From Planctomycetota bacterium (lineage in GTDB: Bacteria; Planctomycetota; Planctomycetia; Gemmatales; Gemmataceae): 48,281 nt of DNA. Numbering within the stretch: position 1 is the stretch's first letter; every line of letters begins with the position of its first letter. The translations under genes and the position numbers were made by a program. The notes under the pieces were generated by a model. That model searched no databases and was not told where the DNA came from. It was given only the letters and a program-made list of their open reading frames with translations. This document shows positions 5,610-48,281 of this stretch, in pieces. The stretch lies in assembly GCA_017306025.1 (NCBI GenBank), contig JAFKJJ010000542.1, positions 1 through 48,281 of the forward strand, written 5' to 3'.

Positions 5610-6998
5610 TCACGGTCCGGGCCGGGTACCGTCGGCGCGCGGCCCCGGCGCGACCGGGCCGACGAGCACCAGCACCGCGAGCGCCATCGCCCCGAGCGGT
5701 CGCGACGAACCGAGTACCGTGAGTACAAATCGCATTACCGCCGAAGGCGAGTCGCCGCTCGCTCGCTCGATCGCGTCCAACGGCATCGGAATCTGCTGAC
5801 TCAGCAGCAGAAGCACCGCGGCCCATCCGCGAACCTTCCACCCGCCCGCGAACAGGTCGCGAATCCACGGCACGACCAGCGTGAGGGCGAGGAGTTCGTA
5901 GCCGAGTACCTGACAGCAAGTGAGGGCACCGGCGACGGCCGCGGCCAGCGCCCACGCGGCCGACGGGCGCTCCCCGGCCAGCGCGACGCGGCCCAGCACC
6001 AATCCGCCCCACACAAGGTACCCCGCGACCGTCGTCACGATGGTCAGTTCGATGAGCGGACCGCCGAGCGCGAAGAGCAGCCGGTTCCAGCTCGTGATCT
6101 GCGGGTTCATCTCCGCGCGGTTGTACAACACCGCCTTGTGCGCGGTCGGAAGGTAGTCGAAGTAGTCCTTCAGGTAGAGCGGCGAACCGCCGGCGAGGGT
6201 CGCGCCGATGAGGTTGAGCGCGGCGACGATCGCAACCACCGCCGCGGCGCGCTTCCAGCCGCCGAGGTACCACGCCACCGCGACGAGCGGCAGCGCCAGG
6301 TGCGGTTTCACGAACGGAATCGCCCACAGCGCCGCGCCGAACCACGTCCGGCCGCGGTCGAAGCACATCTGTCCTGCCACCACACACGCGACCGACCACA
6401 GCGGCGTCTGCCCGACGACCACCGTCGCCACCGCGAGGGGGTTGAACACGAGCGCCAGCGGCACGATCAGCCAGACAAGGGTTCGCGGCGCCGGCGCCTG
6501 ACCCGGCGCGCGGAACTGATTGGGCAGCTGCGCAATGGCCCACGCGGCGAACGCGGTGACGACCGCCCACAGCACCTTCGCGCCCACCCACGGGAGCACC
6601 GCGAACGGCATGTAAACCACGATCGCCAGAGGTGGTGGGAAGTACCCGCAGTTGTTCACGAGGCTGTCGAGCTTCGGATTCTCTTCCGGGAACTGCGCGG
6701 CCACGCGGGCGCGCACGAGCGGAACGTCATAGGGCGTTCGTCCCTCGGAGACGAGCAGCGGGCCGATGCGGTAGATGAACAGGTCGGGGAAGTTGTTGGT
6801 AGCCAGCGCCTGGAGCAGCGCGAACGCGCCGAGCAGAAGGGCCGCGAACAGCGGGAGCGGCGAAGCCCCCTCCCCCCGACCCCCAGGGGGAGAGGGGGAA
6901 GCACCCGGAGGGCCTGTCCCTTCCCCATCGGAGGCGCCGCTTTCTCCCCCTTCCTTTTTAGGGAAGGGGGCCGGGGGGTTAGGTTCCGCCTTAGCCAC
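5610..6998 (-). CDS. GT87-like membrane glycosyltransferase with repeat-derived N-terminus
   Basis: 462 residues. The GTG start at 6998 overlaps the end of the E2 gene by 8 nt and has a good GGAG seven bases upstream, inside the E2 reading frame. No other ATG, GTG or TTG occurs in frame before the first membrane segment, so residues 6-46 (starting NPPAPFPKKEGG, Gly/Pro-rich) must come from the palindromic repeat at 6866-6982. About ten hydrophobic segments follow. CGYFPPPLAIVVYMPFA resembles the DUF2029 loop motif and AIPFVKPHLALPL the conserved KP-containing helix. It is probably coexpressed with the 2-oxo acid dehydrogenase genes by read-through, with no obvious metabolic link. Confidence 0.78.
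   Translation of the reverse strand: MAKAEPNPPAPFPKKEGGESGASDGEGTGPPGASPSPPGGRGEGASPLPLFAALLLGAFALLQALATNNFPDLFIYRIGPLLVSEGRTPYDVPLVRARVAAQFPEENPKLDSLVNNCGYFPPPLAIVVYMPFAVLPWVGAKVLWAVVTAFAAWAIAQLPNQFRAPGQAPAPRTLVWLIVPLALVFNPLAVATVVVGQTPLWSVACVVAGQMCFDRGRTWFGAALWAIPFVKPHLALPLVAVAWYLGGWKRAAAVVAIVAALNLIGATLAGGSPLYLKDYFDYLPTAHKAVLYNRAEMNPQITSWNRLLFALGGPLIELTIVTTVAGYLVWGGLVLGRVALAGERPSAAWALAAAVAGALTCCQVLGYELLALTLVVPWIRDLFAGGWKVRGWAAVLLLLSQQIPMPLDAIERASGDSPSAVMRFVLTVLGSSRPLGAMALAVLVLVGPVAPGPRADGTRPGP
6866..6982. repeat. Palindromic C/G-rich repeat lying inside coding sequence
   Basis: Two hairpin modules occur here. One is at about 6866-6898 (C-run, short loop, G-run). The other uses CCCCCTTCC (6946-6954) and GGAAGGGGG (6962-6970), flanked by a GGGGGGTTAGG end. 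On the minus strand the end reads CCTAACCCCCCGGCCCCCTT. The element spans the 5' end of the downstream GT87-like gene and is translated. Related copies are at 568-650 and 7953-8084. Confidence 0.75.
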
Positions 6999-8337
6999 CG
7001 TTCTTCTCCGGCAGGAGCAAGAGCGCCGGCGCCTGCAGGTACCGCATCACCGCGTTGCCGAACGCGGCGCCAACGGCCCCGTCCACCACGCGGTGGTCGA
7101 ACGAGAACGACAGGTACACGATGTCGGCCGGCTTCAGCGCGCCGGCCGCGTCGTACACGGGCCGCTTCACCACCTTGCCGACGCCCATGATGCCGACTTC
7201 CGGGTAGTTAATGATCGGTGTGGAGATCAACCCGCCGATGTTGCCGATCGACGTGACCGTGAACGTGCCGCCGCGAAGGTCGTCGAGCTTGCTCCGGCCG
7301 TTCCGCGCGTCGCCGCTGAGCCGCTCGATGTCGGCCGCGACCGTCGGGAGGTCCTTCTTGTCGACGTCCTTCACCACCGGCACGATGAGCCCGTTGGGCG
7401 CCGCGACCGCGATCCCGATGTGGTACCGGTCGTGCAGAACCACCTCGCCCGCGGTCTCGTCGAAGGTGCTGTTGACGATCGGCACCTCTTTGAGCGCCCG
7501 CGCCACGGATTTCACGAAGAACGCGAGGTACGTGAGCTTTACGCCGGCCGCGGCGAGCGGCTCGCGGAGCTGCGACCGCAACCGCACCGCGTCGGTGAAG
7601 TCGCACTCGTCCATGTACGAATAGTGCGGGACGTGCCGCTTCGACTCGACCATGTGCTCGGCGATCTTGCGCCGAAGGCCGATGAGCTTCTGCCGCGTCC
7701 CGGCGACGCCGAAATCGAGCCTGGGTGTCTCGGCGCCCGGCGCGGACACGGGGGGCGTGCCGTTGCTCGATTTGGGCTGGAGGTACGGGCCGAGGTCATC
7801 AAGTAGGATGCGCCCGTGCGGCCCGCTGCCGCGGACGTGTGCGAGGTCGACGCCGAGCTTGCGCGCGAGCATCCGCACCGACGGCGCGGCCGGCGGGAGC
7901 GGCCCGTGCGTGTGGCCGTTGGAAGGGGGCGCGACCCGCTCCGCCTTCGCAAGACCTACCACCCCCGGCCCCCCCTCCCTGAAGAGAAGGGGGGGGACCG
8001 ATTGTTTCGCCTCCTGTGCGCTGTTGAACGTTGTCGCACCGCCGACGTCTTCCTCCCCCTTTCCCCTCGGGGAGGGGGCAGGTTTCTCCTTCTCGGTCGC
8101 TTCGCTCGCCGGACTATAGCTCAGGAAGTGCTGACCGACCTTCACCTTCGCGCCCTCGGTCGCGGCCAGCGCGGTGATCGTCCCGGCGAACGGCGCGGGC
8201 ACCTCCATGCTCGCCTTGTCCGACATCACCTCCGCCAGCCCCTGCCCGCGCACGACCGCGTCGCCCGGCCGCACCAGCCAGCGCACCAGTTCCACCTCGA
8301 TCAACCCTTCGCCGACCGGCGGGAGAGGAAAGTCCAT
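6991..8337 (-). CDS. Dihydrolipoamide acyltransferase (E2) of a 2-oxo acid dehydrogenase complex
   Basis: 448 residues. Order of domains: one lipoyl domain (1-75, lipoyl Lys41 in EVMSDKASMEVPAPFAG), a linker, the peripheral-subunit binding domain (about 151-185, VRMLARKLGVDLAHVRGSG), and the catalytic acyltransferase domain with SFDHRVVDGAVG (His415 and Asp419). It transfers acyl groups from E1 to CoA via the swinging lipoyl arm. Branched-chain or pyruvate specificity cannot be fixed by eye; the adjacent E1 alpha and beta look closer to the branched-chain type. Unusually, residues about 85-131 of the linker are encoded by a palindromic repeat (7953-8084). It follows E1 beta after a 102-nt gap that holds another inverted repeat. 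Confidence 0.93.
   Translation of the reverse strand: MDFPLPPVGEGLIEVELVRWLVRPGDAVVRGQGLAEVMSDKASMEVPAPFAGTITALAATEGAKVKVGQHFLSYSPASEATEKEKPAPSPRGKGEEDVGGATTFNSAQEAKQSVPPLLFREGGPGVVGLAKAERVAPPSNGHTHGPLPPAAPSVRMLARKLGVDLAHVRGSGPHGRILLDDLGPYLQPKSSNGTPPVSAPGAETPRLDFGVAGTRQKLIGLRRKIAEHMVESKRHVPHYSYMDECDFTDAVRLRSQLREPLAAAGVKLTYLAFFVKSVARALKEVPIVNSTFDETAGEVVLHDRYHIGIAVAAPNGLIVPVVKDVDKKDLPTVAADIERLSGDARNGRSKLDDLRGGTFTVTSIGNIGGLISTPIINYPEVGIMGVGKVVKRPVYDAAGALKPADIVYLSFSFDHRVVDGAVGAAFGNAVMRYLQAPALLLLPEKNGG
7953..8084. repeat. Palindromic repeat read in frame as the E2 interdomain linker
   Basis: The left module at about 7953-7996 is ACCTACCACCCCCGGCCCCC followed by a G-run after GAAGAGAA. The right module at about 8052-8082 is CCTCCCCCTTTCCCCTCGGG with a G-run. 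It matches the ends of the copy at 6866-6982 in inverted orientation. In the E2 frame it gives about 45 residues including PAPSPRGKGEE and VPPLLFREGGPG, with no stop codon. Confidence 0.7.
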
Positions 8338-8358
8338 GGTTCGCTCCGCTCACGGCTG

Positions 8359-8439
8359 ACAGTGGGCAGTGCGCGGTGGGCAGACAAAGCCCGTCCACCA
8401 TCTCTTGCTATCCACCGCCCACTCTCCACTGCCCACTGT
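8359..8439. repeat. Inverted repeat in the E1 beta-E2 gap
   Basis: Perfect 12-nt arms ACAGTGGGCAGT (8359-8370) and ACTGCCCACTGT (8428-8439), with an inner pair GCGGTGG (8373-8379) / CCACCGC (8412-8418). The right arm abuts the E1 beta stop codon. The hairpin may shape E1 beta/E2 message processing; no T-run is present. Confidence 0.65.
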
Positions 8440-9498
8440 TCACGCCGCTTCCGTCGCCAGGTCCCACAGCGCGGCGCGGATGTCGCCCAGTTGCGGGACG
8501 CTGTTGAGTTCGTAGTTCTGGTTCATCCCGATGCCGGGCACGTGCTTGCCCATCAGGGTCCGCGGGCGCACCACGAGGTCGTAGAAGTGCTCGTCGATCA
8601 CCCTGCGCAACAGGTGCTCGCCGAAGTTCGTCACTTCCGTGTCCTCGTTCACGATCAGCACGCGACCCGTTTTGAGCACGCTGCGGGAGATCATGCCCCA
8701 GTCGTAGGGGAAGATGCTGCGCAGGTCGATCACGTCGAACGTGCTGCCGTGCTCGCGGGCCAGCTCGTCCGCGGCCTGCACGCACAGGGGTAGCGGACGG
8801 CCGTAACTGACCACGGTGCCCGCCGTGCCCTCGCGCACGAGCGCCGCCTCGCCGATCTTGACCGTGTGGTCTTCGAGTTCGGGCCACTGCGGCTCCCAGT
8901 TCGCGCGGTCGCCGACGGGCGCGTCGATCATGCGGCTCAGTTCGTCCGCGTCGGCCGGCTCGCCGGGGATCAGCCGCGTGTCCTTCTGGCGCAAGAGGGC
9001 TTTCGGCAGGAGCACGAGCACCGGGTTCGGGTCCTTGATCGCCGCGAGCACGAGCCCGTAGGCGTCCAGCGCGTTGGACGGCATCACGATCTTCCACCCC
9101 GGCAGCCGGCTCGCCCAGCCCTCGAAGCTGTGCGAGTGGTAGACGCTGCCGCGGATGCCGGCCCCGTTGGGCGTCATGACGACGATGGGCATGTCGAACC
9201 CGCCGGCGCCTACCCACCGCTGGTTGCCCGCGATCTTGAACATGTCCAGCACGTTGAACGCGTAGTCGCAGAACTGGATCTCGCACACCGGTCGGCCGCC
9301 GGCGTACGCGATGCCCATCGCGGCGCCCAGGATGCCGCGCTCGCCGAGGGGGGTGTTCCAGGCGGTCTTGAGGCCCTGGGTGGCGGTGAACACGCCGCCG
9401 AGCGGCGGCCCGACGTCCTCACCGAACACGTCCGTCACGCCGAGGTGCTTTTCGCCGTAGTGAAGGGCCATCCGCACGGCCTGTGCCATGTTCGCCAT
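8440..9498 (-). CDS. 2-oxo acid dehydrogenase E1 component, beta subunit
   Basis: 352 residues with both transketolase pyrimidine-binding and C-terminal domains. Family motifs include the early FGEDVGPPLGGVF, PLGERGILGAAMGIAYAGGRPVCEIQF, the potassium-loop region, and the C-terminal segment TVVSYGRPLPLC with VIDLRSIFPYDW. With E1 alpha it decarboxylates the 2-oxo acid on TPP and acylates the E2 lipoyl group. The region RLPGWKIVMPSNALDAYGL is characteristic of branched-chain or pyruvate E1 beta. It lies 127 nt downstream of E1 alpha, with a perfect 34-nt-arm palindrome in the gap, so subunit ratios may be set after transcription. Confidence 0.94.
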   Translation of the reverse strand: MANMAQAVRMALHYGEKHLGVTDVFGEDVGPPLGGVFTATQGLKTAWNTPLGERGILGAAMGIAYAGGRPVCEIQFCDYAFNVLDMFKIAGNQRWVGAGGFDMPIVVMTPNGAGIRGSVYHSHSFEGWASRLPGWKIVMPSNALDAYGLVLAAIKDPNPVLVLLPKALLRQKDTRLIPGEPADADELSRMIDAPVGDRANWEPQWPELEDHTVKIGEAALVREGTAGTVVSYGRPLPLCVQAADELAREHGSTFDVIDLRSIFPYDWGMISRSVLKTGRVLIVNEDTEVTNFGEHLLRRVIDEHFYDLVVRPRTLMGKHVPGIGMNQNYELNSVPQLGDIRAALWDLATEAA

Positions 9499-9515
9499 TG
9501 CCGTTCCTCACAACG

Positions 9516-9620
9516 AACTAACCACAGAGGCGCAGAGACACAGAGAAAACCAAAGAGAAAGAGTTCTTCGAGCCCATCTCCTCATGTTTTCTCTGTGTCT
9601 CTGCGCCTCTGTGGTTAGTT
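9516..9620. repeat. Perfect 34-nt-arm palindrome between E1 alpha and E1 beta
   Basis: Arms at 9516-9549 and 9587-9620 are exact reverse complements over 34 nt, with a 37-nt loop. The core CCACAGAGGCGCAGAGACAC is a widely seen bacterial intergenic repeat type. It fills almost the whole gap between the E1 alpha stop (9626) and E1 beta start (9498). Confidence 0.85.
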
Positions 9621-9625
9621 TTTGG

Positions 9626-10759
9626 TCAGTTCCGCGCCTCCGGAAGACCTGTGAAATCGTTCGGATAAACCGCGTCGACTGCACTCGGTGCGTACGTGAA
9701 AGCGTACACGTCGTCGCGGGTCGGCTCGGCCTCCTTCATCGTCCGCACCACCGCGTCGTCGGCCTCCTTCTTCGCTTCTTCCTTGAGGGCGCGGACGGTC
9801 GCGGTGTCGATCGCCCCGAAGTCGATCAGTTTCTGCTCGAACGTCGCCAGCGGGTCGGTTTCGGTCCAGTTCCGCTGCGCGCCGCTCGACGACGAGTGCC
9901 CGTGCAGCCGGCTCACCATCGCTTCGAGCAGGAACGGCTTGCGCTCGCGGCGGCAGTACCGCATCGCGCGGTCGATCGCGTTCCACGTCGCGACCGGGTC
10001 GTTGCCGTCGATCGTCTCGTTCCGCACGCCGTAAGGAATCCCGCGGTCCGCGATCGGCCGGTGCGCGTGGACCGTGTCGAGGTCGGTCGAGATGCCGTAG
10101 CGGTTGTTGGCCACGAGCATCAGCACCGGCAGTTCGTTGTCGGGCCGCGTGCTCCAGTTCAGGCACGTCTCGAAGTCGCCCTCCGCGGTGCCGGCCTCGC
10201 CGCCGACGACGATCGTGATGCCCTCGGCCTCCAGCGGGTTCTTCTGCCCGTGCCGCTTCTGGACGAGCGCGGTACCGGGCGCCATCGCGAACTGCACCTC
10301 GATCACGCTCGTGACCGGCACGACGTTCCACGCGGGGATCGAGTAGTGCCCGACGAAGTTCCGCCCGCGCGAGTGGGTGTCGGTCGCGCGCATCGCGAGC
10401 TGCCGGGTGTGGTCGATCATCGGCATGCCCATCGCGAGCATGACGCCGGCGTTGCGGTAGTGCAGGTGCAGGTAGTCGTGTGCCGGCCCGCGGCCCTTGT
10501 GGACCTGGAGCCCCAGGCACACGTTGAACGCCTCTTCGCCGGGGCCGCCGATCCAGAAGTACGCTTCCCCGGATTTGGACATCTTGATGCTCCGCTCTTC
10601 GAGGGCGCGGGTGCGGAGCATCTGGCGGAACACGGTCAGGGCGAGTTCGACGGACATGACCTCCCGACCGGAGCGGATCACGGCCGGTGCGGCGGTCCGG
10701 GTGGACCGCCGCAACAGCGCGTCCTCGAGGTCGGGTGGGTCCTCGTTCATATCGGGCAT
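9626..10759 (-). CDS. 2-oxo acid dehydrogenase E1 component, alpha subunit
   Basis: 377 residues if started at ATG 10759 (MPDMNEDPP). A TTG at 10843 would add residues encoded by a hairpin, and an internal ATG (MSVELALTVFRQ) is also possible. E1 alpha signatures: MLRTRALEERS near the start, YFWIGGPGEEAFNV, HYRNAGVMLAMGMP, HSRGRNFVGHYS, the TPP motif running from GGEAGTAEGDFE to ANNRYGIS, and the phosphorylation-loop-like RLHGHSSSSGAQRN. The TPP motif has GEA where GDG is usual, so the Mg-binding Asp is replaced by Glu (codon at 10196-10198). It is the first gene of the minus-strand dehydrogenase unit. It resembles branched-chain 2-oxo acid E1 alpha more than E. coli AceE. Confidence 0.92.
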   Translation of the reverse strand: MPDMNEDPPDLEDALLRRSTRTAAPAVIRSGREVMSVELALTVFRQMLRTRALEERSIKMSKSGEAYFWIGGPGEEAFNVCLGLQVHKGRGPAHDYLHLHYRNAGVMLAMGMPMIDHTRQLAMRATDTHSRGRNFVGHYSIPAWNVVPVTSVIEVQFAMAPGTALVQKRHGQKNPLEAEGITIVVGGEAGTAEGDFETCLNWSTRPDNELPVLMLVANNRYGISTDLDTVHAHRPIADRGIPYGVRNETIDGNDPVATWNAIDRAMRYCRRERKPFLLEAMVSRLHGHSSSSGAQRNWTETDPLATFEQKLIDFGAIDTATVRALKEEAKKEADDAVVRTMKEAEPTRDDVYAFTYAPSAVDAVYPNDFTGLPEARN

Positions 10760-10800
10760 GACTTGGTCACTCCCCGGAGCGGTGGCCGGCTTTGGAGAGG

Positions 10801-10825
10801 GACCGTCCCGAGGGGAGGGACGGTC
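10801..10825. promoter_or_regulatory. Hairpin upstream of the E1 alpha gene
   Basis: GACCGTCCC (10801-10809) and GGGACGGTC (10817-10825) form a perfect 9-bp stem with a 7-nt loop, about 40 nt upstream of the chosen E1 alpha start. It could be a leader structure or an operator; nothing else supports a specific regulator. Confidence 0.4.
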
Positions 10826-11103
10826 AGCGGACAGACCGACCAAGGTCCGAAATCGACGGTTCCGGGAATGGTCTGGTGTCTAATGTTTCGGCAAACGGCG
10901 CCTGCCTTCGCGACTCGTGTGCAAATCGACACAAAGGCAGGAATCGGGCCAATTGCGAAACGCGAAAAACCAAACGCAAAACGGCACCACTGAGAGATTC
11001 TACGCGACCCAAGTGACGCAAGATTCAGCAAGCGATGCACCACAAGCGGGCACCCGTCTGCTCATCAACATCAAGTGGACACCTCCGCGAACCTCTAATG
11101 GCA
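10826..11103. other. Gene-free stretch upstream of the dehydrogenase operon
   Basis: No convincing gene is seen on either strand. The middle (about 10910-11000) is A-rich for this genome, with repeated GCGAAA/CGCAAA words, and probably carries the E1 alpha promoter on the minus strand. I could not pick a credible -35/-10 pair. Confidence 0.4.
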
Positions 11104-26223: not shown

Positions 26224-26250
26224 ACGGCCGCCCAGAAGGGCGGCCGTTTT
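26224..26250 (+). terminator. Rho-independent terminator
   Basis: ACGGCCGCCC (26224-26233), loop AGAA, GGGCGGCCGT (26238-26247), then a T-run. It lies 18 nt after the stop of the tandem paralogue and is the most classical terminator in the window. Confidence 0.8.
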
Positions 26251-26252
26251 CA

Positions 26253-26312
26253 TGTGGTCCGGTCGCTCCGCGACCGGTCTTCGGAACCCGGTCACGGAGC
26301 GACCGGACCACA
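26253..26312. repeat. Palindromic repeat of the TGTGGTCCGGTCGCTCC family, copy 1
   Basis: Arms of 25 nt at 26253-26277 and 26288-26312 match with one mismatch around a 10-nt loop. It lies between convergent genes. Copies 2 and 3 are at 33957-34065 and 39850-39977. Confidence 0.85.
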
Positions 26313-26321
26313 TCAAGACCG

Positions 26322-26927
26322 CTACTCCCCGCGTAACTGCGTGCTCGACACGTCCGCGCGAAAGTCCGCCTCCGTGAGCGCCACGAACAGCGGGGCGAAC
26401 TCGGCGGACAGGCCGCTCCCGTCCCACAGGCGGAACGCGCCGCCGCGGTCCACGCGCCCACCTACGACGAGCCGGCACCCGCGATCCGCAAGCTTCCGCA
26501 GCGCGGCGTCGCGTCCGACCGCGCCGCCGTAATACTTCGGGTCGATCACGCGGACGGCCGTGTCCCAGCCGAGCACGAACGCCGCGCCGGGGAACAGGTC
26601 CGCTTTCGCCCCGAAGGTCGCGGCCCGCGTGACCCACACCGGTCCGACGTCCGCGAACTGCTTCACGCGCCGTTCGACCTCGTCGCGGGGCAGTTCCGGC
26701 TTGTCCGCGTTGACCACGCTCAACTCGAAATGGACGTCGGCGCCGAGCCGGACCGCGGCGGCGCGGGCCAGCGACGTGTGCCCGTGATGGAGCGGGTTAA
26801 ACGACCCGGGCAGAACCGCCTCGGGCAACGACGAACGCCCCGCCAATGCCCCACCAACGACGCAGGAAAGGATCTCCGGTGTCTGAGGGCCGGCGGTGTT
26901 CGTTGCTGCGCTGTCTTCCTTCGTCAT
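26322..26927 (-). CDS. NadD-like nucleotidyltransferase of uncertain substrate
   Basis: 201 residues from ATG 26927, which overlaps the TAA of the S9 peptidase gene by one base (TAATG), so the two are probably translationally coupled. The nucleotidyltransferase signature is PGSFNPLHHGHTSLARAAA (HxGH type, about 43-61), and the C-terminus has a TQLRGE end recalling the ISSTxIR motif. FVLGWDTAVRVIDPKYYGG corresponds to the central NadD region. Nicotinate-mononucleotide adenylyltransferase is the nearest family, but the N-terminal 40 residues (MTKEDSAATNTAGPQTPE onward) are extra and the substrate pocket cannot be judged by eye. Confidence 0.78.
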   Translation of the reverse strand: MTKEDSAATNTAGPQTPEILSCVVGGALAGRSSLPEAVLPGSFNPLHHGHTSLARAAAVRLGADVHFELSVVNADKPELPRDEVERRVKQFADVGPVWVTRAATFGAKADLFPGAAFVLGWDTAVRVIDPKYYGGAVGRDAALRKLADRGCRLVVGGRVDRGGAFRLWDGSGLSAEFAPLFVALTEADFRADVSSTQLRGE

Positions 26928-33956: not shown

Positions 33957-34065
33957 TGTGGTCCGGTCACTCCGTGACCGGTGCGACACATCGCGGTAGC
34001 GCTGCACGGTCGTCCGTTAAGCACCACGCACGCCGTCGCACCGGTCACGGAATGACCGGACCACA
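33957..34065. repeat. Palindromic repeat of the TGTGGTCCGGTCGCTCC family, copy 2
   Basis: Arms of 31 nt at 33957-33987 and 34035-34065 match with one mismatch; 47-nt loop. It fills the gap between the convergent Rrf2 and PVC-protein genes. Confidence 0.85.
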
Positions 34066-39834: not shown

Positions 39835-39849
39835 CGGCTGCCCTCCGGT

Positions 39850-39977
39850 GTGGTCCGATCGCTCCGTGACCGGTCTTCAGAGTGGTCCGCTCGCTCCGCG
39901 AGCGGTAGCGCAAAGACGTTTATCCCGTCGCTTTACGGAGCGCGTCGCACCGCTCGCTCCGCGAGCGGACCACTCTG
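39850..39977. repeat. Palindromic repeat of the TGTGGTCCGGTCGCTCC family, copy 3 (composite)
   Basis: A half element at 39850-39874 is followed by a palindrome with 29-nt arms at 39878-39906 and 39949-39977, which differ only in the central bases. Unlike copies 1 and 2 it lies between divergent genes, so it cannot serve as their terminator. Confidence 0.8.
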
Positions 39978-40056
39978 GAGACGCTCTTGTTGACGAAAAG
40001 GTGATCGCGCGCCCGCGCCGCGGTATACTCCGGGTCGCTCCTTCCCAGAGGTCCCC

Positions 40057-43798: not shown

Positions 43799-45526
43799 AT
43801 GTCAGCCAAGCAACTTTCCTACGCCGACGACGCGCGCCAGAAGCTCCTCGCCGGGGCCAGCAAGCTCGCACGTGCCGTCCGCGCCACCCTCGGCCCCCGC
43901 GGCCGTAACGCCGTGCTCGACAAGGGCTGGGGTTCGCCGAACGTCACCAAGGACGGCGTTACCGTCGCCGAGGACATCGAGCTGAAAGACCCATTCGAGA
44001 ACATGGGTGCTCAGCTCGTGAAGGAGGCCGCGTCGAAGACCTCCGACGTGGCCGGCGACGGCACCACCACCGCGACCGTCCTCGCGGAGTTCATCTTCGA
44101 CCGCGGGCTCTCCGCGGTGGCCGCCGGGCGCGACCCGATGGCCCTCGTCCGCGGCATCCAGAAGGGCGTCGAGTCGGTCGTCGACGAGTTGCACAAGATC
44201 GCCGAGGAGATCGACCCGAAGGACAACAAGTCGATCACCGAGGTCGCCAGCATCGCGGCCAACAACGATAAGGAGATCGGCAAGAAGTTGGCCGAGGCGA
44301 TGAAGCTCGTCGGCGCGACCAACGGCGTCATCACGATCGAAGAGGGCAAGACCGCGGACACGCAGGTGGTCGTGGTCCAGGGTATGCAGTTCGACCGCGG
44401 GTACCTCTCGCCGCACTTCGTCACCAACCCGGAGTCGGTGACGTGCGAGTTCGAGAACGCGGCCGTCCTCATCTACGAAGAGAAGATCAGCAGTCTCAAG
44501 CAGATCATTCCGCTCCTGGAGTGGGCCGCGAAGGAGAAGGAAAAGCTCCTCATCATCGCCGAGGACGTCGAGGGCGAGGCGCTGGCCGGGCTGGTGCTGA
44601 ACAAGCTCAAGGGCGTGCTGCACGTGTGCGCGGTGAAGGCGCCGGGTTACGGCGACCGCCGCAAGGCGATGCTCGAAGACATCGCGATCCTCACCGGCGG
44701 CAAGGCGATCTTCAAGGACCTCGGCGTCCAGATCGACGCGACCGTCGCGGGCAAGGGCGGCACCGTTCCGATGGTGGTCGCCGACGGCTACCTCGGCCGG
44801 GCCAAGAAGGTGAAGATCGACGCCGAGAACACGACCGTCACCGAAGGCAGGGGCGACAAGAAGGCGATCGAGGGGCGGGCGGAGTCGATCCGCAAGGAGA
44901 TCGAGAAGACCGAGAGCGAGTACGACCGCGAGAAGCTGCAAGAGCGGCTCGCGAAGCTCGCGGGCGGCGTGGCCCAGGTGAAGGTCGGCGGCGCGACCGA
45001 GACCGCCATGAAGGAGCGGAAGGCGCTCTACGAGGACAGCCTGCACGCGACCCGCGCGGCGCTGGCCGAGGGCATCGTCCCCGGCGGCGGCGTGGCGCTC
45101 CTGAACGCCCGCAAGGTTCTCGAAAAGGCGATGAAGGGCGACGACGACGAGGCCGCCGGCCTGGCGGTGCTCTTCAAGGCGCTGGAGATGCCGTGCCGGC
45201 TGATCGCCGAGAACGCGGGCGAGGACGGCACCGTGGTCGTGTCCCGCATCCTCAAGGCGAAGGACAAGAATCACGGCTGGAACGGCGACACCGGCGAGTA
45301 CACCGACCTCCGCAAGTCCGGCGTCATCGACCCGGTGAAGGTGACCCGCAGCGCCCTCCAGAACGGCGCCAGCGTCGCGTGCCTGCTGCTCACCACCGAG
45401 TGCATGATCGCGGACATCCCCGAGCCGAAGAAGGCCGGCGGCGACCACCACGACGATCACCACGGCGGCGGCATGGGTGGCATGGGTGGCATGGGCGGAA
45501 TGGGTGGCATGGGCGGAATGATGTAA
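43799..45526 (+). CDS. groL: Chaperonin GroEL, copy 1 (GGM tail with His/Asp stretch)
   Basis: 575 residues. ATPase motifs [14 protein letters not shown] and the early [14 protein letters not shown] are intact, as is [11 protein letters not shown]. The C-terminus is [18 protein letters not shown] and further GGM repeats, the flexible tail that projects into the folding cavity, here with a His/Asp block before it. The apical domain has an insertion around [20 protein letters not shown] relative to E. coli. It folds proteins with GroES, whose gene follows after a repeat-filled 170-nt gap. Confidence 0.95.
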
Positions 45527-45539
45527 CGCGCGTTTACGC

Positions 45540-45672
45540 GGGCGCCCTCGAATCGAGCGCCCCCGTTCGCACCCAGGACAACGCCTGGGCTGAGAAACCT
45601 CAGACCGACGCCTGAAAAACAAATGCACCCCCCAAGGGGGTGCGATTCCTCAGCCCAGGGCAACGCCCTGGG
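45540..45672. repeat. Cluster of hairpins between groEL1 and groES
   Basis: Three structures: a stem at 45540-45551/45553-45562, a tight hairpin GCACCCCCC/GGGGGTGC at 45625-45643, and CCCAGGG (45654-45660) / CCCTGGG (45666-45672), with a degenerate inverted copy at 45572-45589. The modules are the same as in the repeat at 19982-20125. Confidence 0.7.
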
Positions 45673-45696
45673 AACCGACGCACCGGGAGCACAACA

Positions 45697-46008
45697 ATGG
45701 CGAAAGCAGAGAAGCAACTGACCCTCAAGCCGCTCGACGACCGCGTGGTTCTGGAGCCGCTGGAGGCGGAAGACAAGACGACCGGCGGTATCCTGTTGCC
45801 CGACACCGCCAAGCAAAAGCCCCAGCAGGGCAAGGTGGTCGCGGTCGGACCCGGCAAGCTGTCCGACAAGGGCAGCCGCACCGCGCTGGCGGTGAAGGTC
45901 GGCGACACCGTCCTGTTCGGCAAGTACAGCGGGTCGGACGTCGAGGTGAACGGCAAGGAATACAAGATCGTCCGCGAGAGCGAGATCCTCGGTAAGATCG
46001 CGAAGTAA
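45697..46008 (+). CDS. groS: Co-chaperonin GroES
   Basis: 103 residues from ATG 45697, with GGGAG upstream; the frame stays open to 45640 through a repeat, which is not coding. [15 protein letters not shown] opens the beta-barrel, the mobile loop is [20 protein letters not shown], and the end is [11 protein letters not shown]. It caps GroEL. As the only groES here it must serve both GroELs unless another copy exists elsewhere. Confidence 0.96.
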
Positions 46009-46021
46009 CGGGGCGCGGTGA

Positions 46022-46132
46022 GCGGTGAATCGTGAGCGGTGGGCGATGAGTCCGGTCGGGATTCTCGCTCGCCGCTGGTTCGAACACCGACCTCACCACC
46101 CACCACTCACCACTCACCAACTCACCAGGTGC
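46022..46132. repeat. GTGAGCGGTG / CACCACTCAC inverted repeat
   Basis: Two GTGAGCGGTG words (starting near 46019 and 46033) face CCACCACTCACCACTCACC near 46100-46120. The loose long-range inverted repeat lies just before groEL2, similar in type to the one at 8359-8439. Confidence 0.5.
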
Positions 46133-46136
46133 AACG

Positions 46137-47822
46137 ATGCCTAAGCAACTGCTCTACACCGACGACGCCCGAAAGAAGCTGCTCGCCGGCGCCGAGAAGC
46201 TGGCCCGCGCGGTCGGCTCCACGCTCGGGCCGACCGGGCGGAACGTCATCATCGACAAGTCGTTCGGCGGGCCGACCGTCACCAAGGACGGCGTCACCGT
46301 CTCGAAGGAGATCGACCTGCCCGACCCGTTCGAGAACATGGGCGCCAAGCTCGTGAACGCGGTCGCGCAGAAGACCAGCGACACCGCCGGCGACGGCACC
46401 ACCACCGCGACCATCCTGGCCCTGGCGGTCTACCAGGAGGGGCTGCGGAACATCACGGCCGGCGCCAACCCGATGGCCGTCAAGCGCGGCATCGACAAGG
46501 CCGTCGCGGCCGCGGTCAAGCACCTCGAAGAGAACCTCACGAAGAAGGTGTCCAAGAAGGAAGAGGTGCAGCAGGTCGCCTCGATCTCCGCGAACAACGA
46601 TCCGAAGATCGGCGCGATGATGGCCGAGGCGTTCGAGAAGATCGGCAAGGACGGCGTCATCACCGTCGAGGAGGGCAAGACCTCCGAGACCGTGTCGGAG
46701 TTCGTCGGGGGCATGCAGTTCGACAAGGGCTACATCTCGCCGTACTTCGTCGTCAACACGCCCGAGTTGAAGTGGGAGCAGAGCAACGTCTCGGTCCTGC
46801 TGTACGAAAAGAAGCTGGCCAACGTGCGCGAGATGATTCCCCTTCTGGAGACCGTCCGGCAGGCCGGCAGCCCGCTCCTGATCGTCGCCGAGGACGTCGA
46901 GAGCGAGGCCCTGGCGGCGCTGGTGGTGAACCGGCTGCGCGGCTACATCGAGGTGTGCGCGGTGAAGGCGCCCGGCTTCGGCGACCGCCGCAAGGCCATG
47001 ATGGAAGACATCGCGGTGCTGACCGGCGGCCAGTTCGTCAGTGAGGACCGCGGGATCGCGCTGGACAGCGTGGACGAGCCCAGCCAGGCGGCTGCGGCCC
47101 GCGGCGCCCGTCCGGAGCCGAAGGTGGCCGCCATGCTCGGCCACGCGGACCAGGTGATCGTGGACAAGGAGAACTGCACGATCATCGTCGAGCCGGACAA
47201 GGAACGGGACGCGGCGATCAAGGCCCGCGTGCAGACGATCCGCACGCAAATGAACCAAACGGAGAGCGAGTACGACAAGGAGAAGTTCTCCGAGCGGCTG
47301 GCGAAGTTGGTCGGCGGCGTCGCGATCGTCAAGGTCGGGGCCTCGACCGAGGCCGAAATGAAGCAGACCAAGGGCCGCGTCGAGGACGCGCTGCACGCGA
47401 CCCGCGCCGCGGTGGCCGAGGGCATCGTCCCCGGCGGCGGCGTGGCACTGCTGCGGTGCGTGCCGGTCGTCGAGGCGCTGAGCGAAAAGCTCAGGGGCGA
47501 CGAGCGGATCGGGGCGGAGATCGTGGCCCGCGCCCTGACCAAGCCGATCCGCACGATCGCCGAGAACGGCGGCGTGGACGGCGCGGTGGTGGCCGACGAG
47601 GTGATCGCCCGCGGCGAGAAGAACCCGAACGTCGGCTACAACGCCAACACCGGCGATTACGAGGACATGTTCAAGGCCGGCGTCCTCGACCCGCTCCGCG
47701 TCACCCGCAGCGCGTTGCAGAACGCGGCCAGCATCGCCAGCCTGATGCTGACGACCGAGGTGATGGTCACCCGCATCGACGAGGACGACAAGAAGAAGCC
47801 GGTGACGGGGGCGATCGCCTGA
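46137..47822 (+). CDS. groL: Chaperonin GroEL, copy 2 (no GGM tail)
   Basis: 561 residues. [33 protein letters not shown] and [11 protein letters not shown] show an intact chaperonin ATPase. The C-terminus ends [15 protein letters not shown] without Gly-Met repeats. The apical region carries an extra loop ([19 protein letters not shown]) not present in copy 1. The two copies are clearly diverged paralogues, so specialised clients are likely. It lies 128 nt after groES and before dnaJ, a chaperone order reported in other planctomycetes. Confidence 0.95.
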
Positions 47823-47827
47823 GTAAA

Positions 47828-48281
<454 letters not shown>

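Follow-up and report, generated by a model that had tools for sequence, protein, structure and literature searches.

A dispersed palindromic repeat in the lipoyl-domain linker of a planctomycete E2 acyltransferase

A 48,281-nucleotide stretch of DNA from a Planctomycetota bacterium of the family Gemmataceae (the window) encodes an E2 acyltransferase whose lipoyl and subunit-binding domains are joined by an arm that consists largely of in-frame, repeat-like sequence. We propose, with considerable confidence, that this segment arose when a dispersed palindromic repeat without coding capacity, MITE-like or REP-dimer-like in character, inserted in frame at a tolerant protein tether. The repeat family is termed family A, and individual genomes and loci are denoted by G and L numbers, respectively.

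The palindromic element in the E2 linker of the window

The E2 gene, its domains, its operon neighbors and the repeat elements are located in the window as follows.

6991..8337, minus strand: E2 (2-oxoacid dehydrogenase acyltransferase), host of the insertion; 448-residue open reading frame with Pfam Biotin_lipoyl, E3_binding and 2-oxoacid_dh domains
8131..8331, minus strand: lipoyl domain of E2, residues 3-69 (Pfam PF00364)
7795..7893, minus strand: E3/E1-binding (subunit-binding) domain of E2, residues 149-181 (Pfam PF02817)
7012..7698, minus strand: catalytic acyltransferase domain of E2, residues 214-442 (Pfam PF00198)
8440..9498, minus strand: E1 beta gene, upstream neighbor of E2 (Pfam)
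9626..10843, minus strand: E1 alpha gene, upstream neighbor of E2 (Pfam E1_dh)
7954..8084, no strand assigned: family-A palindromic element in the E2 linker, about residues 85-128 (profile match, inverted modules, fuller copies at the same place in orthologues)
8052..8084, minus strand: upstream hairpin module AACCTGCCCCCTCCCCGAGGGGAAAGGGGGAGG (weak family-A match)
7998..8051, minus strand: variable spacer (position between the two hairpin modules)
7954..7997, plus strand: downstream hairpin module, inverted relative to the upstream one (family-A match, E=1.5e-4)
6866..6985, minus strand: second family-A copy, 5 bp past the E2 stop codon (profile match at 6947-6985, E=1.7e-10; sequence)

Because the three Pfam domains occupy residues 3-69, 149-181 and 214-442, the segment at 7953-8084 (about residues 85-128) belongs to the linker between the lipoyl and E3-binding domains, which spans 76 residues. 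The palindromic element supplies about 43 of these 76 residues and thus most of the arm; the peptide KPAPSPRGKGEEDVGGATTFNSAQEAKQSVPPLLFREGGPGVVG, encoded by about 7954-8084, forms its middle part. The two inverted C/G-rich modules of the original prediction are indeed found in this linker, at 7971-7994 and 8055-8078, where 24 nucleotides on each side are 83% complementary across an interval of 60 nucleotides. A family-A profile, seeded from copies of other species with the window E2 copy excluded, matches 7954-7994 on the plus strand at E=1.5e-4 and places a weak second module at 8056-8081 on the minus strand (E=0.14). The upstream module's own pattern, which was written from that very copy, matches once in the window against zero matches expected by chance. 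The long inverted-repeat score of the element is 12, equal to the best of 68 control windows from the catalytic part, and its RNA fold z-score is -2.2 relative to shuffled sequences. The window copy is a degenerate member of family A and is therefore identified through its family match and through the orthologues. The reading frame is open through the whole element, as had been predicted, which is unremarkable alone because intergenic copies are often open too.

The second family-A copy, which includes a partner module, matches the family better than the linker copy does. The GT87 glycosyltransferase gene (5610-6998) has a called start that reads through this element (MAKAEPNPPAPFPKKEGG), and its true start probably lies after it. 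The prediction that such modules elsewhere lie in gaps holds for the copy at 6866-6985, but many copies in the genus are found within genes.

Several other repeats accompany family A in the window. The gap between E1 alpha and E1 beta (9507-9629) is filled by a 44-nucleotide inverted repeat of the CCACAGAGGCGCAGAGACACAGAGAAAAC type with 91% complementarity, and that between E1 beta and E2 (8356-8442) by an unlike inverted repeat, CAGTGGGCAGTG ... CACTGCCCACTG; each gap of the operon thus holds a different repeat. A dispersed inverted repeat family, TGTGGTCCGGTCGCTCCGCGACCGG, is located at 26243-26322, 33957-34065 and 39849-39982. Farther along, two tandem stretches at 43808-47783, 70-77% similar and about 2.33 kb apart, look like duplicated GroEL genes, the first of which ends in GGM repeats. 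A perfect 50-nucleotide inverted repeat with an 11-nucleotide loop lies at 47828-47938.

Linker repeats in orthologues and other proteins

The E2 linker was compared in 19 genomes of the genus and in 11 sampled orthologues outside it. In 13 of the 19 genus members the linker is occupied by palindromic repeats, which belong to no fewer than three unrelated families (A, C and D). Family-A modules are present in G000, G009, G007, G012, G010, G004, G001 and G018, with near-perfect copies in G010, G009, G004 and G001; the G018 contig ends within the element. Family C (GGCGAGCGGGGGGCATAAGCCCCCCG) occupies the linker of G016 and, in diverged form, that of G014. Family D (CGGTGAACCGCGACCGTGAGGGAGCGGGT) is present in G015, with a weaker copy in G005, and G002 carries A-like hairpins; of all these assignments, those for G002, G005 and G014 carry the greatest uncertainty. 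The G002 linker (L007) contains a perfect hairpin, CCGTCTCTCCCGCTCCCT-GA-AGGGAGCGGGAGAGACGG. The remaining linkers (G003, G006, G008, G011, G013 and G017) are of the ordinary Ala/Pro/Thr-rich kind. Family C is dispersed in both G016 and G015, and family D in G015. Outside the genus, none of the 11 orthologues has an inverted repeat in the E2 linker clearly above codon shuffles. The alignment of related E2 proteins that the original prediction had called for thus reveals the segment to be replaced or absent in relatives; orthologues carry other repeats or none, not one shared segment with protein-level conservation.

The repeats at this site turn over. On a tree built from E2 without its linker, at least seven changes are needed for the states A, C, D and none, and five for presence and absence. 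The sister species G007 and G009, separated by a dS of about 0.23 in the catalytic part, have different linker arrangements. The unrelated families give different peptides, from different frames, at the same site. A second E2 paralogue (PVTIPRLGWNMEEG type), which came to attention because the repeat search matched its linker, has linker repeats in 4 of 9 species, drawn from several families. These are A in G010, C in G001 and, as a fragment, in G018, and in G004 a GGTCCGC-TCGCTCCGCGAGCGG type that is seen also as inverted repeats in the window. The G004 copy (L217) lies in frame and is related to the TGTGGTCCGGTCGCTCCGCGACCGG family.

Does the repeat lengthen the arm, as was originally suggested? 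Genus linkers with a repeat measure 52-83 residues (median 68) and those without one 49-103 residues (median 58), and the difference is not significant (p=0.81). Proline (16 vs 17%) and hydrophobic residues (13 vs 12%) are similarly frequent in repeat-bearing and repeat-free linkers; glycine and lysine are higher and alanine and threonine lower in the former. E2 linkers are flexible tethers that are weakly constrained in sequence. Most likely, the repeat is tolerated in the E2 linker and takes over the tether role.

In-frame copies also occur in PheT, SelB and about 20 further proteins. Pfam supports, among other hosts, PheT, SelB, a CheA-type kinase, RecD2, a PP-loop ATPase, a penicillin amidase with two elements, apolipoprotein N-acyltransferase, a sulfatase, a polyprenyl synthetase and a protein kinase; some inserts fall within the span of a Pfam domain and others between domains. 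In PheT, G012 has a family-A insert whose site is empty in G007 and G009, G015 has one of family D, and G006 has one half of an A-type element. SelB has an insert in G012, G001, G006, G016, G007 and G009 and lacks one in G000, G004, G008, G011, G014 and G017. E2, PheT and SelB are thus conserved genes with in-frame insertions and with orthologues that lack them. The insert frequencies in PheT and SelB are biased upward because these genes were chosen for one species' insert, and that in E2 is biased likewise because E2 was singled out for its insert by the original prediction.

In about 1.4 Mb sampled outside the window, 16 family-A elements were found: six in predicted genes, one at a gene edge and nine in intergenic DNA. 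Among 46 elements sampled around BLAST matches, 22 lie in genes, 6 at edges and 18 between genes. By the home-made gene finder that underlies these counts, coding DNA makes up about 72-82% of the sampled genomes, so genes are under-represented as family-A targets and yet far from excluded.

An intergenic copy is open, on average, in 2.28 of its 6 frames, and an open frame was therefore rejected as stand-alone evidence. Of the 22 insertions in E2, SelB and PheT taken together, about 20 keep an open frame, for which the chance probability is roughly 4e-7, a rough figure that ignores shared descent. This frame preservation suggests that the element is translated as part of the host protein. Both non-open insertions come from G009, whose E2 (L003) and SelB (L145, L159) copies contain in-frame stops; the SelB copy also carries an ambiguous base. 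These stops may reflect errors of sequencing within C/G runs, or the two genes may truly be broken.

Over 39 codons, the E2 insertion shared by G004 and G001 differs by one synonymous and four amino-acid changes; elsewhere in the gene, dS is 0.59 and dN is 0.05. Four-fold sites are identical at 25 of 26 positions in the element, compared with 102 of 158 in the rest of the gene (p=5e-4). In this one species pair, the element appears to be conserved at the DNA level and not by protein constraint. Homogenization, a recent transfer of that copy, or selection that acts on the palindrome would account for this.

Form and dispersal of family A

Family A consists of two inverted C/G-rich hairpin modules that flank a variable spacer, in the layout 5'-AACCTA(A)CCCCCC-GG-CCCCCTTCCCTNAAGGGAAGGGGG-spacer-(inverted copy)-3', and most copies measure about 80-170 bp. 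It behaves as a dispersed palindromic repeat of about 100-150 bp and resembles a MITE in its terminal inverted repeats, lack of coding capacity and patchily dispersed copies. When the 142-bp copy of G010 was used as a BLAST query, G000 gave about 100 matches and nine further genus genomes gave 73-129 each; G013 and G017 gave none. These counts span both orientations with only part of the candidates scored, and they do not equal copy numbers. At E<=1e-6, family A is found in 14 of the 19 genus genomes, with no match in G008, G011, G013, G014 and G017. Its distribution is patchy across the bacterial family as well (25 of 95 genomes; 9 of 39 genera). The copies in the window escaped a consensus that had been guessed from protein motifs.

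Family A does not carry GTAG at the 5' side of the hairpin: where GTAG is present, it trails the hairpin (GGGGGGTAGGTT), and many copies read TTAGG or AGAGG in its place. No family-A module was found near any of the 12 Y1 (RAYT transposase) loci checked. Furthermore, family A occurs in G007, where Y1_Tnp has no match, and Y1_Tnp occurs in G013, where family A is missing. Mobilization by RAYT is not supported, given this lack of proximity and the uncoupled presence in G007 and G013. In view of the misplaced tag and the missing link to Y1 transposases, we do not file family A under the GTAG-REP/RAYT systems. A search for Y1_Tnp identified no parental transposon for family A, and the one diverged empty-site comparison (PheT of G012 against G007 and G009) displayed no obvious target-site duplication.

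Origin of the linker sequence and known systems

The linker history is best read as repeated landing at a tolerant site. A copy of a dispersed repeat would land in the E2 linker, probably by transposition or copy transfer, and would be translated with near-neutral effect. Copies that break the frame or strike the folded core would mostly be purged. The peptide that a surviving copy encodes, with abundant Pro, Gly, Ser, Glu and Lys, would then serve as the tether, and the site could later be overwritten by other repeats. By composition and position, the arm peptide is presumably disordered, and copies may survive there because a disordered tether imposes little constraint on sequence or length.

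The original prediction left it undecided whether the element had been domesticated or tolerated; toleration fits the evidence, and domestication for a specific function is unsupported because unrelated families and ordinary linkers swap at the site and even G007 and G009 differ. A selected Gly/Pro peptide that makes a better or longer swinging arm would account for the open frame in nearly all species and for the repeated use of one E2 site within one genus. We nevertheless consider such selection unlikely, given that the change in linker length is not significant, that different families read in different frames place different peptides at the site, that repeats turn over between sister species and that the changes in the copy shared by G004 and G001 give no sign of protein constraint.

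The near-identity of four-fold sites in that shared copy is what could be expected if the palindrome were kept for a nucleic-acid role, as an mRNA hairpin, a polarity or pausing signal between the lipoyl domain and the core, or a DNA-binding site, with translation as a by-product. This role is very improbable: 6 of 19 species have no palindrome in the linker, the fold of the window copy is only moderately stronger than that of shuffled sequences, and homogenization or recent transfer accounts equally well for a conservation seen in a single species pair. We give hardly any credence to an ordinary GC-rich Pro/Gly linker that is palindromic by chance. GC-rich DNA is often open and self-complementary, and the inverted-repeat score of the window copy does not exceed the control maximum, but the independently seeded profile matches, the two-module layout is that of the dispersed copies and near-perfect copies sit at the same place in four other genomes.

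Insertion of a mobile repeat at a tolerant tether may extend beyond E2. Disordered linkers and loops of conserved enzymes in the genus, chiefly both E2 paralogues' swinging arms, a loop of PheT and the interdomain linker of SelB, may have been serially rebuilt from unrelated mobile palindromes that swap between sister species, with the palindromic DNA more conserved than the surrounding codons. We regard this broader proposal as plausible, although the odds lean slightly against it; if it is true, mobile non-coding repeats rank among the main suppliers of linker sequence proteome-wide. One enzyme arm hit by at least three unrelated families constitutes a natural replicate insertion series, which allows one to ask what a swinging arm tolerates and how mobile DNA turns into protein. 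Cultivable relatives of Gemmata would allow tests by proteomics and enzyme assay.

Flexible linkers rich in Ala and Pro are typical of E2 enzymes. The repeat-bearing arm resembles them in its position between the lipoyl and subunit-binding domains, its proline richness and its few hydrophobic residues, and it differs in its repeat-derived sequence, in which Gly and Lys are more frequent and Ala and Thr less so. Rickettsia and scattered hosts of REPs are the best-known bearers of in-frame palindromic elements; a planctomycete genus can now be added, in which about a third to a half of the sampled copies lie in genes. The Rickettsia palindromic elements (RPE) are inserted in frame and have counterparts in Wolbachia (Ogata et al. 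2000, 2002, as reviewed in PMC2229807 and PMC10969869). Like them, family A comprises palindromes of roughly 100-150 bp with inverted-repeat ends, lies both in frame in conserved genes and in intergenic DNA, and is tolerated at protein surfaces or linkers; by analogy, family A may work like RPE. The likeness is one of behavior; family A comes from another phylum and is a C/G-rich double hairpin of unrelated-looking sequence. Moreover, several unrelated families here hit the same linker in different species, and the host arm is a flexible tether.

The GTAG/CGTC REPs form intragenic head-to-head dimers, occur also in Planctomycetes and are very frequent inside genes in Opitutus (PMC3733652). Family A shares with them short hairpin units that are often arranged as inverted pairs, dispersed and at times intragenic. 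However, its hairpin has no tag where a REP carries one, no RAYT neighbor was found, and its longer units form pairs that flank a variable spacer. Bacterial MITEs, such as Correia/NEMIS and ERIC, are small, non-coding and able to form in-frame fusions with host genes (PMC2229807). Family A is likewise small and non-coding, with terminal inverted repeats, a patchy distribution and in-frame host fusions, and it differs in having no parental transposon identified in the Y1_Tnp search and no obvious target-site duplication in the one PheT comparison. Our literature search found no report of such elements for Gemmata-like bacteria. The closest known phenomenon is thus the in-frame palindromic elements of Rickettsia together with intragenic REP dimers; new here are the planctomycete repeat families, their high intragenic share and the repeated landing of unrelated repeats in homologous linkers.
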